Shown here piece by piece: positions 27,190 to 49,389 of a stretch of 64,000 bases of DNA. The translations under genes were made by a program, and so were the position numbers. The notes under the pieces are model-generated. The model did not search any database and had not been told where the DNA came from. It was given only the letters and a program-made list of their open reading frames with translations. Where the stretch lies: the NCBI RefSeq assembly GCF_037198315.1, contig NZ_CP144913.1, positions 1,364,001-1,428,000 on the forward strand. Direction: 5' to 3'. Numbering within the stretch: the stretch's first letter is position 1; each line of letters starts with the position of its first letter. The DNA comes from Janibacter sp. A1S7. GTDB lineage: Bacteria > Actinomycetota > Actinomycetes > Actinomycetales > Dermatophilaceae.

Positions 27190-28590
27190 CTATGCGTGCG
27201 CGTGCAGGGGATGCCCAGCAGCGAGCATGGCGGCTTCGCCGAGCGCCTCGCTCTGGGTGGGATGGGCGTGCACCATCGGGGCGATGTCCTCCGGGTGGGC
27301 CTCCCACCCGACGACCAGCTGGGCCTCGCTGATCAGCTCACTGGCGCCGAGGCCGATCATGTGCACACCGAGCACGGGGCCGTCCTTCTCACGCACCAGG
27401 GTGACCGATCCGCTGGTGCCCCGGATGAGGCTGCGGCCGTTGCCGCCGAGCGGGTAGGTGACGGTCTCGACCTCGTGGGCAGCCCCCTTGGCCTGGTCCG
27501 CAGTCAGCCCGACGGAGGCGATCTCCGGGTCGCAGTAGGTCACCTTGGGGATCGCCACGTCCTCGACCGGGGCGGGCTCGAGGCCGGCGATGTCCTCGGC
27601 CACGAAGATGCCGTGGGCGAAGCCGCGGTGCGCCAGCTGCACTCCCGGGACGAGGTCGCCGACCGCGCGCACGCCGTCGACGTTCGTGCGCAGTCGCTCG
27701 TCCGTGGGCACGAATCCACGATCGGTCTCGATCCCGGCATCCGCCAGGCCGATGCCCTCGCTGCGCGGGCCACGCCCGACGGCGACGAGCACGAGGTCGA
27801 CCTCCAGCGGGTCGCCCTCCTCCAGGTGGACGACGGCCCGCGAGTCGTCGGCCTCGACCGAGGCGACCCTGGTGGAGGCGAGCGTCTTGATCTTGCGCTT
27901 GGTGAACTCCCGGGTGAGTTGCTTGGAGACTGCCGGCTCCTCGGCCGCGACGATCCGGTCGAGCGCCTCGACGATCGTCACCTCGGCACCGAAGCTGCGC
28001 AGCATCGAGGCGAACTCCACCCCGATGACGCCGCCACCGAGGACCGCCACCCGCTGCGGGATCTCGGTGAGGCTCATCGCCTGGTCGCTCGTCATCACCC
28101 GCGGTCCGAGCTCGATGCCCGGGAGGGTCTTCGCGTAGGAGCCGGTGGCCAGCACGACGGTCGTCCCGATGACCTCACGGGTCCCCTCGGGGGTATCGAC
28201 GGAGACGGTGTGCGCATCCACGAGGTGTCCCCGGCCGGTGACGACCTCGATGTCGGCCTGCCCGATGAGTCCGGTCAGGCCCTTGTACAGCTGCCCGACG
28301 ATCTTGTCCTTGCGGGCGTGCATCGCCTCGGTGTCGATCCCCTCGAAGGTCGTGCGCACCCCGTGCGCGGCGCCGCTGCGTGCCCCGTCGGCGATCTCCG
28401 CCGCGTGCAGCAGCGCCTTGGTCGGGATGCACCCGCGGTGCAGGCAGGTCCCGCCGATCTTGTCCTCCTCGATGAGCGCGACCTTCAGGTCGAGCTGCGC
28501 GGCGCGCAGGGCGCAGGCGTAGCCACCGCTGCCGGCGCCGAGGATGACGAGGTCGAAGGGGGACGAGGTCGAGGTCGTGGGGTCGGCCAC
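27190..28590 (-). CDS. lpdA: Dihydrolipoamide dehydrogenase (E3)
   Basis: A 466-aa flavoprotein that reoxidises dihydrolipoyl groups. N-terminal FAD motif GAGSGGYACALRAAQ, redox disulfide GGTCLHRGC, NAD motif GGGVIGVEFAS, and the C-terminal HAHPTQSEALGEA with the catalytic His-Glu pair are all present. The GTG at 28590 is chosen because GGAG lies 6 nt upstream. It shares its strand with sucB. The structured element at 28674-28781 lies about 80 nt upstream and could be in its leader. Confidence 0.92.
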   Translation of the reverse strand: MADPTTSTSSPFDLVILGAGSGGYACALRAAQLDLKVALIEEDKIGGTCLHRGCIPTKALLHAAEIADGARSGAAHGVRTTFEGIDTEAMHARKDKIVGQLYKGLTGLIGQADIEVVTGRGHLVDAHTVSVDTPEGTREVIGTTVVLATGSYAKTLPGIELGPRVMTSDQAMSLTEIPQRVAVLGGGVIGVEFASMLRSFGAEVTIVEALDRIVAAEEPAVSKQLTREFTKRKIKTLASTRVASVEADDSRAVVHLEEGDPLEVDLVLVAVGRGPRSEGIGLADAGIETDRGFVPTDERLRTNVDGVRAVGDLVPGVQLAHRGFAHGIFVAEDIAGLEPAPVEDVAIPKVTYCDPEIASVGLTADQAKGAAHEVETVTYPLGGNGRSLIRGTSGSVTLVREKDGPVLGVHMIGLGASELISEAQLVVGWEAHPEDIAPMVHAHPTQSEALGEAAMLAAGHPLHAHA

Positions 28591-28673
28591 GGGGTGCTCC
28601 TTTGGATGGACTGTGTCCGGGGTCACGGACGACCCCTAGCGTAAGGGTCGGCGATGCCTGCGGACGAGCGCAC

Positions 28674-28781
28674 GCAGGGTGGGGGGTCGGCCTGGCTCAG
28701 GCCGAAGCCCGCACGGTGCACCCGGGTGAGGGATGCACACTGTCGTGCGGACTTCGCGCCAAGGGCCACCCCCGACCCTGC
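28674..28781 (-). ncRNA. Candidate structured RNA element, copy A
   Basis: Read on the minus strand: closing stem P1 (28781-28768 with 28687-28674, 13 of 14 paired), conserved CCCTTGGCGC (28765-28756), stem P2 of 11 bp (28755-28745 with 28714-28704, one G-U) enclosing a 30-nt loop, then P3 GGCCTG-AGC-CAGGCC (28703-28689). The P2 G-U is a C-A mismatch on the other strand, favouring minus-strand RNA. It begins 50 nt after the pepA stop and ends 83 nt before lpdA. A second copy at 48819-48928 has the same fold with compensatory changes. Confidence 0.55.
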
Positions 28782-28815
28782 GGGAGCGGAGGCTGCCGGA
28801 TGGCTGTGCCCCGGA

Positions 28816-30321
28816 TCAGGCCAGCGAAGCGAGGTGCTCCAGCAGGGTCCCGACGGCGACGCCGGTGCCGCCCTTGGGCACATGGCCCCACGGGCTGCCC
28901 TCGTTGAAGGAGGGCCCGGCGATGTCCAGGTGGGCCCAGGGGATGTTCTCCCCCTTCGCGTCCTTGGCGAACTCCTGCAGGAACAGGCCGGCGGTCAGGG
29001 CACCGCCCATGCGATCCCCCTTGTGGGCGATGTCGGCGACGGCGGAGTCGAGCGTGGCGCGCAGGTCGGTCGGCAGCGGCAGCGGCCAGCTCGGCTCGTC
29101 GGCACGCTCGGCGGCGCTGGTGATCGACTGCCGGACCGTGTCGTCGTTGCTCATGACGCCGAAGATCTTCGGGCCGAGCGCGACGACGCAGGCACCCGTG
29201 AGGGTGGCGACGTCGAGGATCTGGTCGGGACCGGACTCGGCCGCCAGGGCCATGCCGTCGGCGAGGACCATGCGGCCCTCGGCGTCGGTGTCCAGGATCT
29301 CCACGGTCGTGCCGTTGCGCATGGTGACGACGTCGCTGGGCCGCTGGGCGTTGGCGCCGGGCATGTTCTCCGCGAGGCAGAGGTAGCCGGTGACGGCGAC
29401 CGGCAGACCGAGCTCGGCAGCGGCGACGACGGTCGCGGCGACGGCGGCGGCGCCGGCCATGTCGGACTTCATCGTCAGCATGCCCGCGGAGGGCTTGAGG
29501 CACACGCCGCCGGTGTCGAAGGTGATGCCCTTGCCGACCAGCGCGACGTGCGGGGCCTTCTTCGAACGGGGCGTGTAGCTCAGGGTGACGATCCGCGGCG
29601 GACGCGTGCTGCCCTGACCGACACCGGTGATGCCGCCGAAGCCGCCCTCGGCCAGTGCCTTCTCGTCGAGCACCTTGACCGTGAGCTTGCCCGGGGAGGC
29701 CTTCGCGACATGCTGCACGGTCTCGGTGAAGGACTGCGGGTAGAGCAGGTTCGGTGCGGTGTTGACCAGGTCCCGGGCCCAGGAGACGTTGCGCGCGACG
29801 GTGGTCGCGTGCTCGATGACGTCCTTCGGGGAGGACTTGCGGTCGAGGTCGGAGAAGACCGTGATCTCGCGCTCGGCACTCTCGTCGTCGGCGGACTTGT
29901 GCGCGGTGAAGCTGTAGGCGCCCGAGGCGGCGCCCTCGGCGATCGCGGCCAGCCCTGCCGCGTCGTCGTGGGGCAGGGCGAGCGCGACGGATCCCTTGCC
30001 GGCACTGCGGACGGCGGCACCGGCAGCGCGACGAAGGGCGTCGGTACCGATGACCCCGTCGGTTGCGTCGGTCGGACCGAGGCCGACGAGCACGACCTTG
30101 TCCGCCTTGAGGCCGGGGACGGCCGGGACGATCGTCGTGGTGGCGACCTTGGCGTCGAGGTCGAGTGAGGGCAGGACGGCGTCCAGGTGCTTCGCAGCGG
30201 TCTTCGGCACGGCGGACGAGGCGCGCACGGCCACCTCGTCCCCGGAGCCGACGACGCCGATCACCAGGGATCGCCCGGACCAGGCGGAGTAGGAGCGGGT
30301 GCCGAGCATCAACGAGGTCAC
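28816..30321 (-). CDS. pepA: Leucyl aminopeptidase (M17)
   Basis: A 501-aa cytosolic aminopeptidase. The two-metal site motifs GKGITFDTGGVCLK and DTDAEGRMVLADG are intact, as is the MKSDMAGAAAV block. The GTG at 30321 with AAAGG about 9 nt upstream is preferred; the frame continues upstream but into the gcvT promoter. It corresponds to M. tuberculosis PepB (Rv2213). PepA-type proteins of enterics also bind DNA, but nothing here shows this. Divergent from gcvT. Confidence 0.92.
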   Translation of the reverse strand: MTSLMLGTRSYSAWSGRSLVIGVVGSGDEVAVRASSAVPKTAAKHLDAVLPSLDLDAKVATTTIVPAVPGLKADKVVLVGLGPTDATDGVIGTDALRRAAGAAVRSAGKGSVALALPHDDAAGLAAIAEGAASGAYSFTAHKSADDESAEREITVFSDLDRKSSPKDVIEHATTVARNVSWARDLVNTAPNLLYPQSFTETVQHVAKASPGKLTVKVLDEKALAEGGFGGITGVGQGSTRPPRIVTLSYTPRSKKAPHVALVGKGITFDTGGVCLKPSAGMLTMKSDMAGAAAVAATVVAAAELGLPVAVTGYLCLAENMPGANAQRPSDVVTMRNGTTVEILDTDAEGRMVLADGMALAAESGPDQILDVATLTGACVVALGPKIFGVMSNDDTVRQSITSAAERADEPSWPLPLPTDLRATLDSAVADIAHKGDRMGGALTAGLFLQEFAKDAKGENIPWAHLDIAGPSFNEGSPWGHVPKGGTGVAVGTLLEHLASLA

Positions 30322-47583: not shown

Positions 47584-48786
47584 GTGAAGGGAACGACACC
47601 CGCAGCCACGGTCGTGGGCCTGCTCGTGACGGCCGCACTCGTCCTGACCGGCTGCTCCAGCGGCTCGGGCTCGCCGGACCCGAACGCCTCCTCGGGGGCA
47701 TCCACATCCACGTCCACGACACCTCCCCCGGCCGAGATCGAGGTCGATCCGGCCGGTGGCTCCGGCGACGTCATGCCCGACGAGAAGATCACGGTGCACG
47801 TCGTACGAGGGGACCTCGACGACGTCACCGTCGTCGGGTCCGGAGGGGACGAGATCGAGGGGACGGTCCAGGGACAGACGTGGACCTCCGGTTCCCGGAT
47901 GAAGCCCTCGACCGAGTACACGGTCACGACCACCGCAGAGGGTCCCGAGGGCGGCGCCACGACCGACAAGACCACGTTCACCACACACGACCCGGATGTG
48001 ACCGCCACCTACGGGATCGTCTACAACGGGCACACCGTCGGCGTCGGGATGCCGGTGAGCATCCAGTTCGACTCCGCCGTCACCGACGAGAAGTACCGTC
48101 GAGCCATCGAGCAGGCCGTCTCGGTCGAGACCAGTCCGAGAACCGAGGGGTCGTGGGGTTGGTTGGACAACCGGCAGCTGATGTGGCGACCCAAGGACTT
48201 CTGGACGCCGGGCACGAGCGTGACGATCAATGCCCCGATCACCGGCTACCAGACCGGTGAGGACAAGTGGGTGGCCGAGGACGCCAGTGGCTCGATGACG
48301 ATCGGACGCCGCCAGATGGCCACCGTCGACATCGCCACGCACGAGATGACCGTCTCCCGGGGCGGCCAGACGATCAAGAGCTTCCCCGTCAGCAGTGGCA
48401 AGCCGGGCAAGGAGACCGAGACCCGGTCGGGGATGAAGGTCGTCATCGGCAAGCAGCGCGAGATGACGATGGACTCCTCGACGATCGGGATCGACAAGGG
48501 CGAGAAGGGCTACTACAAGGTCGATACCGACTACAACGTGCGGGTGACCTGGACCGGGGAGTTCGTCCACTCCGCGCCCTGGTCCGTGGGTGCCCAGGGC
48601 AGTACCAACGTCTCACACGGATGCGTGAACATGGCCCCCCAGAACGCCAAGTGGTTCTACAAGCACTCGCTGGCCGGCGACCCGGTCAACTTCACGGGCT
48701 CGGACCGCGAGTTCAAGCCCACCGAGGGGATCGGGGTCTGGCAGTTCTCGTGGGCGCAGTGGCAGCAGCAGAGCGCTCTTGCCTGA
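47584..48786 (+). CDS. L,D-transpeptidase with Ig-like domains
   Basis: A 400-aa secreted lipoprotein (lipobox VLTGC near residue 20). After a Ser/Thr/Pro linker come two Ig-like domains (about residues 50-250) and a YkuD catalytic domain with VSHGCVNMAP holding the nucleophile Cys. It makes 3-3 peptidoglycan crosslinks, like mycobacterial LdtMt2. GTG at 47584 or TTG at 47581 (GGGGG 8 nt upstream) may start it. It follows the ctaCDF operon by 132 bp. Confidence 0.88.
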   Translation: MKGTTPAATVVGLLVTAALVLTGCSSGSGSPDPNASSGASTSTSTTPPPAEIEVDPAGGSGDVMPDEKITVHVVRGDLDDVTVVGSGGDEIEGTVQGQTWTSGSRMKPSTEYTVTTTAEGPEGGATTDKTTFTTHDPDVTATYGIVYNGHTVGVGMPVSIQFDSAVTDEKYRRAIEQAVSVETSPRTEGSWGWLDNRQLMWRPKDFWTPGTSVTINAPITGYQTGEDKWVAEDASGSMTIGRRQMATVDIATHEMTVSRGGQTIKSFPVSSGKPGKETETRSGMKVVIGKQREMTMDSSTIGIDKGEKGYYKVDTDYNVRVTWTGEFVHSAPWSVGAQGSTNVSHGCVNMAPQNAKWFYKHSLAGDPVNFTGSDREFKPTEGIGVWQFSWAQWQQQSALA

Positions 48787-48818
48787 CTCGCTTGACTCCC
48801 GGTCGGCGTGTCGTCCGA

Positions 48819-48928
48819 GCGAAGGGATGTCGCCTGCCCTTGGCGCCCAGTCCGCACTGGTGACCCTTCATCACACCCAGGTGCACGGTGCGGACTGGGG
48901 CCCGAGTCGGGCCGACAACATCCTTCGC
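48819..48928 (+). ncRNA. Candidate structured RNA element, copy B
   Basis: Closing stem P1 GCGAAGG-g-ATGT (48819-48830) with ACAT-CCTTCGC (48918-48928); conserved CCCTTGGCGC (48837-48846); P2 of 11 bp (48847-48857 with 48888-48898) around a 30-nt loop; P3 GGCCCG-AGT-CGGGCC (48899-48913). Against copy A, P2 and P3 lengths, loop lengths and spacing are identical, and three alignable pairs changed on both sides. It lies in the 222-bp gap between convergent genes; its conserved box starts 50 nt after the transpeptidase stop. Confidence 0.55.
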
Positions 48929-49008
48929 CCTCTCACCTCGTCGCCCACATGGGCCGAGTGCATCCCCTTCGGCCGATCTCGAGCGGCACCTCGGGTACCT
49001 CCCCCGGG

Positions 49009-49389
49009 TCAGGCCCAGCCGAGGTCGTGGAGGCGCTGCTCGTCGATGCCGACGTGGTGACCTGCCTCGTGGACGATCGTGATGGTGATCTCCTCACGCA
49101 GCTCATCGATGTCGGCGCACATGCGTGACAGGGGGCCTCGGAAGAGCACGATCCTGTCCGGGAGGGCGCCCGCGGCCCAGCCGCCGTCGCGGTCGGTCAG
49201 GGGTGTTCCGACGTAGATCCCCAGGAGCTCGGCGTTCTCCTCGGTGGAGAAGGCCGGATCGGCGTACTCGGGACCGGGTTCGTCCTCGACGAAGAACGCC
49301 ACGTTGTCGAGCATGTCGAGCAACTCGGACGGGACCTCGTCGAGGGCCGCACGAACCGCCGACTCGAAGTCCTCTTCACTGATCTGCAT
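49009..49389 (-). CDS. Small zinc metallopeptidase (zincin-like, DUF1025)
   Basis: A 126-aa protein with HEAGHHVGID, the HExxH zinc site of minimal zincins, near the C-terminus and a preceding LYVGTPL-like IYVGTPLT block. The ATG at 49389 lies 2 nt past the MFS stop, and its GGAGG ribosome binding site is inside the MFS 3' end, so the two are co-translated. Substrate unknown; no signal peptide. Confidence 0.82.
   Translation of the reverse strand: MQISEEDFESAVRAALDEVPSELLDMLDNVAFFVEDEPGPEYADPAFSTEENAELLGIYVGTPLTDRDGGWAAGALPDRIVLFRGPLSRMCADIDELREEITITIVHEAGHHVGIDEQRLHDLGWA

Follow-up and report, generated by a model that had tools for sequence, protein, structure and literature searches.

A dispersed palindromic hairpin repeat of the genus Janibacter, located at gene 3' ends and possibly serving as a terminator-like hairpin

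The enterobacterial 127-bp repeats known as ERIC, IRU or RU-1 are dispersed intergenic sequences that form a single long stem-loop and, where they lie behind genes, can alter mRNA decay (PMC2267715, PMC2229807, PMC10969869). Correia or NEMIS elements and other prokaryotic MITEs are small, dispersed and bounded by inverted repeats. They are normally found between genes, one of them is described as residing mainly in 3' untranslated regions, and Correia elements are reported to invert (PMC10969869). REP and BIME sequences are intergenic palindromes that sometimes occur in inverted pairs. Template switching between the arms of inverted repeats has been reported to homogenise the arms and to invert the spacers (PMC8604942). 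Here, we describe a hairpin family of Janibacter that shares features with each of these systems; it is real and genus-wide, and we found no earlier description of it in the open-licence PMC literature.

The stretch under study (hereafter the window) comprises 64,000 nucleotides of Janibacter sp. A1S7 (contig NZ_CP144913.1, positions 1,364,001 to 1,428,000). A preliminary description, made from the sequence alone, had noticed two copies of a structured element, copy A on the minus strand (28781-28674, box at 28765) and copy B on the plus strand (box at 48837). Both lie at these places and align without gaps over 77 nt with exactly 53 identities, and what had been said of their stems P1 and P2 and of the paired changes is correct for the two copies themselves. 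The pattern of box plus P2 has two occurrences in the window, where shuffled sequences would lead one to expect 0.02, and both copies fold more stably than dinucleotide-shuffled sequences (z of -7.33 for A and -4.54 for B), so that they are not due to chance. Four other copies of the same genome gave z-scores that were clear in two cases (-5.29, -5.85) and weak in two (-1.79, -2.68). The limits of copy A given below follow the commonest reach of similarity across loci, which extends 24 nt ahead of the CTT box and 26 nt past TGAGYC.

28668..28787 (approximate), minus strand: copy A of the element, matched by the covariance model; the 28674-28781 of the preliminary description plus a few bases per side
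28763..28787, minus strand: 5' outer arm of copy A, ending in the 5-bp stem strand GGCCC (28767-28763), from folds, consensus structure and covariation
28756..28762, minus strand: 5' side of the internal loop of copy A (TT), followed by GGC and GC up to the inner stem
28745..28755, minus strand: 5' strand of the inner stem of copy A, from folds, consensus and covariation
28715..28744, minus strand: terminal loop region of copy A, 30 nt
28704..28714, minus strand: 3' strand of the inner stem of copy A, from folds, consensus and covariation
28694..28699, minus strand: 3' side of the internal loop of copy A, TGAGCC (TGAGYC in the family)
28668..28693, minus strand: 3' outer arm of copy A, starting with AGGCC, which pairs with GGCCC except for one C-A mismatch
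48815..48934 (approximate), plus strand: copy B of the element, box at 48837-48846
28816..30321, minus strand: pepA-like gene (Peptidase_M17; Pfam PF00883 and PF02789), its stop codon just upstream of copy A
28612..28643, minus strand: promoter-like conserved sequence TACGCT...GACCCCGGACACA separating copy A from lpdA, with a putative promoter role
27190..28590, minus strand: lpdA-like gene (Pyr_redox_2 with dimerisation domain)
47614..48786, plus strand: L,D-transpeptidase (YkuD) gene upstream of copy B
49009..49389, minus strand: Zincin_1 gene downstream of copy B, convergent

Minimum-energy folds and the consensus structure predict a single long hairpin for the unit of about 125 nt. It runs from an outer stem through a 5-bp stem (GGNCC/GGNCC), an internal loop, GGC/GCC, a bulged G and an inner stem to a loop of about 30 nt. 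The three-way junction that had been proposed gives way to this fold, its third stem P3 being supported neither by energy nor by covariation. Six out of six copies lose 4.4 to 11.2 kcal/mol of stability when five P3 pairs are forced, and the four GGCC pairs of P3 are formed in 187 of 296 cells against a shuffled mean of 191 (sd 4.5); the two inner pairs of P3 hardly vary and are uninformative. The internal loop is asymmetric, with CTT or CTN on the 5' side and mostly TGAGYC on the 3' side. Among 74 distinct sequences, obtained from the 91 of 96 copies that could be parsed (five were skipped by the anchors), 46 carry CTT, with CTA or CTG in most others, and 66 carry TGAGYC, frequencies that are partly due to construction as the two boxes doubled as parsing anchors. 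In a second subfamily, a similar loop is flanked by GGGAAAAGTCCGGAC-like inner stems.

Paired changes strongly support the long hairpin, and not P3. The 5-bp stem is paired in 345 of 370 cells, while 2000 shuffles yielded 281 (sd 4.8, maximum 296). Across 59 copies of subfamily 1, 92.0% of the cells of the long hairpin are paired, double changes occur in 24 of 31 pairs, and 288 cells show a double change compared to 86.6 after shuffling. The covariation score of the long hairpin reaches 0.415 against 0.025-0.066 for slid versions. The 59-copy alignment was fitted to the structure, a fitting of which the shuffle test on the 5-bp stem is free.

The paired changes had been taken as marks of selection on RNA structure. 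The changes themselves are borne out, yet they alone are no proof of RNA selection, because A.C mismatches outnumber G.T pairs on the proposed strand (147 and 38 cells in 93 distinct copies, with a scoring that treats both alike) and because template switching offers an alternative. An RNA under selection on that strand should show the reverse, G.T in excess of A.C; the counts would agree better with a reading on the opposite strand, which turns them into 147 G.U and 38 A.C, or with upkeep of the palindrome as DNA. When each locus, position and type is counted once, the outer arms hold 25 G.T and 99 A.C and the inner stem 11 and 19, part of the A.C excess being located in a poorly paired junction. 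Fifteen orthologue pairs point the same way, with 13 changes from Watson-Crick to G.T and 30 to A.C (p = 0.014, counted in both directions and with cells that are not independent). The ordinary 3' hairpins of the genus (61 hairpins; 27 G.T, 18 A.C) are without the A.C excess of the element.

Comparison of close orthologues bears on how the arms may be kept complementary. Over 470 base pairs compared in 14 pairs, there were 30 single changes and three Watson-Crick double changes, which speaks against frequent correction of one arm by the other in one step. The rate of change at stem sites is about half that at unpaired ones (40 of approximately 940 against 76 of 884). The retention of the internal loop suggests selection, since template switching would tend to erase it. 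Covariation, the usual hallmark of RNA selection, stands here beside signs of a palindrome that may be maintained, at least in part, as DNA, these signs being the excess of A.C over G.T mismatches and one well supported inversion in place. The latter concerns L001 and L090, whose inner identity of 97% is the best of 104 cross pairs; at four other loci with opposite orientations, identity is not decisive.

The element is not confined to the two copies that had been noticed. Allowing up to three mismatches, the pattern marks nine places in the 3.36-Mb genome of Janibacter sp. A1S7, six of them true copies, and a covariance model built from these six (R1) finds eight clear copies (E <=1e-7), A and B being two of these. 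The remaining five R1 matches comprise two reverse self-matches and three weak ones, among the latter L021 and L022, which sit where other genomes carry a copy. A second model (R2), for which 90 aligned matches including two reverse self-matches were used, likewise finds eight copies in the source genome. In the same genome, the pattern of a solo 3' half-element has seven matches, some of them inside full copies, against three for a reversed control.

Homologues in related genomes, the search for which by covariance model had been suggested, were found throughout the genus. R1 (E <=0.01) matched 14 of 16 Janibacter genomes and none of 42 others, and R2 (E <=1e-4) 15 of 16 and none of 170 other genomes of the taxonomic family. 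In a draw of 396 genomes from the order, R2 matched three, all of the genus, and in a draw of 394 from the class, only the source genome; searches over 40 genomes ran with stricter filters, which weak relatives elsewhere could escape. In a genomic contig collection, the subfamily-2 pattern hit six stretches, all from Janibacter (anophelis, hoylei, terrae, indicus), and the subfamily-1 pattern, which catches 54 of 109 loci and neither window copy, hit none. One of the six stretches, L110 of J. anophelis, has its match at the contig position that L043 has in G012, which points to Janibacter as the genus. The listed R1 matches numbered 33 in genome G014, 31 in G007, 16 in G005 and 12 in G009. The earlier remark that no described family has this layout agrees with Rfam, which gave no match at gathering score in the 64-kb window, only three matches around copy A (all below gathering score, E 1.5-2.9), and none at E <=0.5 at five loci with other copies.

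In order to relate the element to its neighbour genes, we used a sample of 96 copies at 41 loci. It is a subset of all copies, with 20 regions each from G014 and G007, 13 of 16 from G005 and seven of 12 from G009, and its genes were called by a simple codon-usage script. Taking one copy per locus (the first in a cluster), 28 lie between convergent genes, nine between same-direction genes in sense, none in antisense and one between divergent genes, with three lacking a setting call. The element therefore lies at a gene 3' end in 37 of the 38 loci with a call, that is, as a stable predicted hairpin shortly behind a stop codon, as expected of a terminator. Random picks of one copy per locus gave similar means (28.3 convergent, 7.5 sense, 1.2 antisense, 1.0 divergent). 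All copies together fall into 65 convergent, 19 sense, five antisense and four divergent, plus three without a call, so that antisense and divergent copies make up five and four of the 93 with a call. As a baseline, we took 196 gaps of 60 bp or more from 21 stretches, some chosen near elements, which gave 91 same-direction, 61 divergent and 44 convergent gaps; against it, convergent settings are enriched (p = 2.5e-9) and divergent ones depleted (p = 8e-5). The sense bias of nine to none has a p of 0.004. In 17 of the 28 convergent loci, the copy lies closer to the stop upstream of it than to the gene downstream, which is not a significant majority. Inverted adjacent pairs occur five times in the sample and form two locus groups (L053, L073 and L092; L126 and L027, both at the pepA locus).

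At the pepA-lpdA locus, 14 gaps were read, with hairpins judged by eye and with G002 and G015 giving no usable match. A sense element is present in six of them (G000, G007, G014, G008, G012, G006), with an additional inverted copy in G008 and G006. The G004 gap holds an ordinary hairpin and an inverted element, and in seven gaps (G005, G011, G009, G010, G013, G003, G001) an ordinary hairpin stands behind the pepA stop with no element seen. Copy A had been tentatively assigned to the lpdA leader. The element follows the pepA stop codon and lies upstream of the block TACGCT...GACCCCGGACACA, which precedes lpdA in 13 of the 14 gaps, with or without an element (it is absent in G001), and separates the element from lpdA; on this arrangement, copy A is probably not part of the lpdA leader. 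Gaps of about 0.9-1.26 kb were seen in G005 (L118), G011 (L121) and G010 (L124), where what looks like an additional gene of roughly 1 kb separates the pepA hairpin from lpdA, the middle of the G005 and G011 gaps falling outside the sequence inspected. At the pepA locus of G014 (L119), the core resembles subfamily 2 while the flanking outer arms resemble those of G000, as if core and outer arms were exchangeable.

At locus B, the element occurs in the source genome only (one of 15 genomes read), in a gap of 222 bp. The 14 other genomes have gaps of 6 to 137 bp with no element and, in most, no obvious ordinary hairpin. This is presence/absence without an exchanged terminator. At a third locus (L072), G007 carries the element, G014 and G000 carry an ordinary hairpin, and G005 carries an ordinary hairpin followed by a stretch resembling the 3' arm of the element. 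An ordinary hairpin hence takes the element's place in element-free relatives at two of three loci examined, which suggests that an ordinary terminator and the repeat may stand in for each other at one gene end between species.

The L072 locus also harbors a member of a second, smaller dispersed hairpin family of 34 nt (GGGGGCTCACGGTCGC TGG GCGACCTGCGCCCCC, with its own asymmetric internal loop; L179-L190, L149, L167, L098 and others), which occupies the place of the G007 element there and adjoins an element at L098. With up to three mismatches, it was found in six of 16 genomes of the genus and not in the source genome; G005 has 19 copies, five of them in tandem at 64-bp steps. Extra 3' half-copies follow an element at L080 and L162 of G007, those at L162 forming a tandem of about 62 bp. 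L062 and L063 of G014 are two identical stretches of 5133 bp with one element each, reflecting either a segmental duplication or an assembly effect.

Across 1491 ordered alignments of copies from different loci, similarity most often stops 23-25 nt ahead of the CTT box and 25-27 nt past TGAGYC, although many alignments are shorter. The outer arms thus travel with the core in many cases, and jumps of the core alone into existing terminator stems find no support as a general rule, as similarity between loci often spans the outer arms. We saw no very young copy: the closest identity between loci is 89.6% over 125 nt (G009 against G006), and the best within one genome, among the 25 best listed, is 83.1%. 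The Y1 transposase family (PF01797) was found in none of the 16 genomes of the genus, while five of 14 control genomes were positive; we rejected a REP/RAYT system for want of a RAYT-type Y1 transposase. The two element patterns had no match in a viral contig collection and copy A had none in phage and plasmid records, sources in which near records may be missing. The element resembles MITEs in being a short dispersed unit with terminal inverted repeats, the outer arms lying inside the repeated unit, and in having filled and empty sites (locus B). We do not file it as one because no target duplication is readable, the filled and empty gaps not being alignable base by base, and because no partner transposase is known.

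The element is a discrete dispersed unit, a long hairpin with covarying stems that is located at gene 3' ends and is present or absent between species. We posit, with about even confidence, that it is a genus-specific dispersed palindromic repeat of approximately 125 nt, ERIC/MITE-like, that serves as or replaces the 3'-end (terminator) hairpin of a gene. To judge from position and exchange, this is the most likely role. The repeat would have spread by transposition or copying and lodged behind stop codons, where its hairpin may end or process transcripts. The arms would be kept complementary through selection on the hairpin, assisted to some degree by template switching, and a putative protein or enzyme might read the conserved internal loop. 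The gathering at 3' ends may merely reflect harmless insertion, which we count against a terminator role, and this role is further weakened by the conserved internal loop, which termination does not need, and by the relatives at locus B that have no obvious ordinary hairpin to be replaced. The non-significant distance asymmetry at convergent loci and the few antisense and divergent copies likewise count against it. A bolder version, which we think unlikely, is a mobile terminator recognized by its shape: arms free in sequence, the asymmetric internal loop kept, and a putative reader of the folded strand, either at the mRNA 3' end or as single-stranded DNA. If true, the genome would possess a movable, invertible 3'-end module that is defined by structure.

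A purely selfish, non-autonomous MITE-like element could persist at 3' ends because insertion is least harmful there, its loop and arms acting as signals for a mobility enzyme. This is the weightiest of the alternatives, albeit somewhat improbable. It would account for the dispersed unit with inverted-repeat ends, the clear-cut filled or empty state of locus B (filled in 1 of 15 genomes), the inverted pairs and the up to 31-33 listed matches per genome, and known MITEs are described as intergenic, one mainly in 3' untranslated regions (PMC10969869). It sits less well with the sense bias of nine to none per locus, the long persistence at loci common to several species, the halved rate of change in stem sites (40/~940 vs 76/884), the lack of any very young copy (best inter-locus match 89.6%), and a partner transposase that is not known (Y1 family in 0 of 16).

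Strong covariation, the conserved internal loop and the sense location behind genes could also mark a structured RNA family with a function of its own, as a regulatory or small RNA, perhaps read from the other strand; we regard this as quite unlikely. The proposed strand shows fewer G.T than A.C (38 vs 147; 13 vs 30 in orthologues), whereas the 147 G.U and 38 A.C of the opposite strand would fit wobble tolerance. Part of the A.C excess lies in a poorly paired junction. An opposite-strand RNA would, however, be antisense to the upstream gene in the nine same-direction loci. Copies at one locus can take either orientation, and Rfam holds no match. Arms that are free in sequence yet complementary, conserved unpaired features, the orientation bias behind genes and one inversion in place recall integron attC sites, that is, a recombination or replication site recognized as folded single-stranded DNA. 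We consider this very improbable, as the element stands behind resident chromosomal genes such as pepA and not in a cassette array, and the Y1 family, the sole enzyme family sought, was found in 0 of 16 genomes. We next compare the element with its closest described counterparts.

The ordinary intrinsic-terminator hairpins of the genus resemble the element in their long, near-perfect stems (61 hairpins, mean stem 18.6 bp), in standing behind stops and in occupying the same place in relatives. They differ from the element in having a short loop and no conserved internal loop, and they fall outside the 125-nt family. REP and BIME share the intergenic palindromes and occasional inverted pairs, but the Janibacter element is much longer and all 16 genomes are devoid of a RAYT-type Y1 transposase. 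Correia, NEMIS and other MITEs share inverted-repeat ends, small size and dispersal, while a readable target duplication and a known partner transposase are lacking in Janibacter. ERIC is alike in length, in its single long stem-loop and in its intergenic, dispersed occurrence. It belongs to another lineage, the present element having been found in one actinobacterial genus only, and its TA termini were not seen in the Janibacter element, whose ends are approximate. As ERIC is described, the Janibacter element is further set apart from it by stems that vary freely while the pairing and the internal loop are kept. We regard the element as close in kind to ERIC and other small palindromic repeats.
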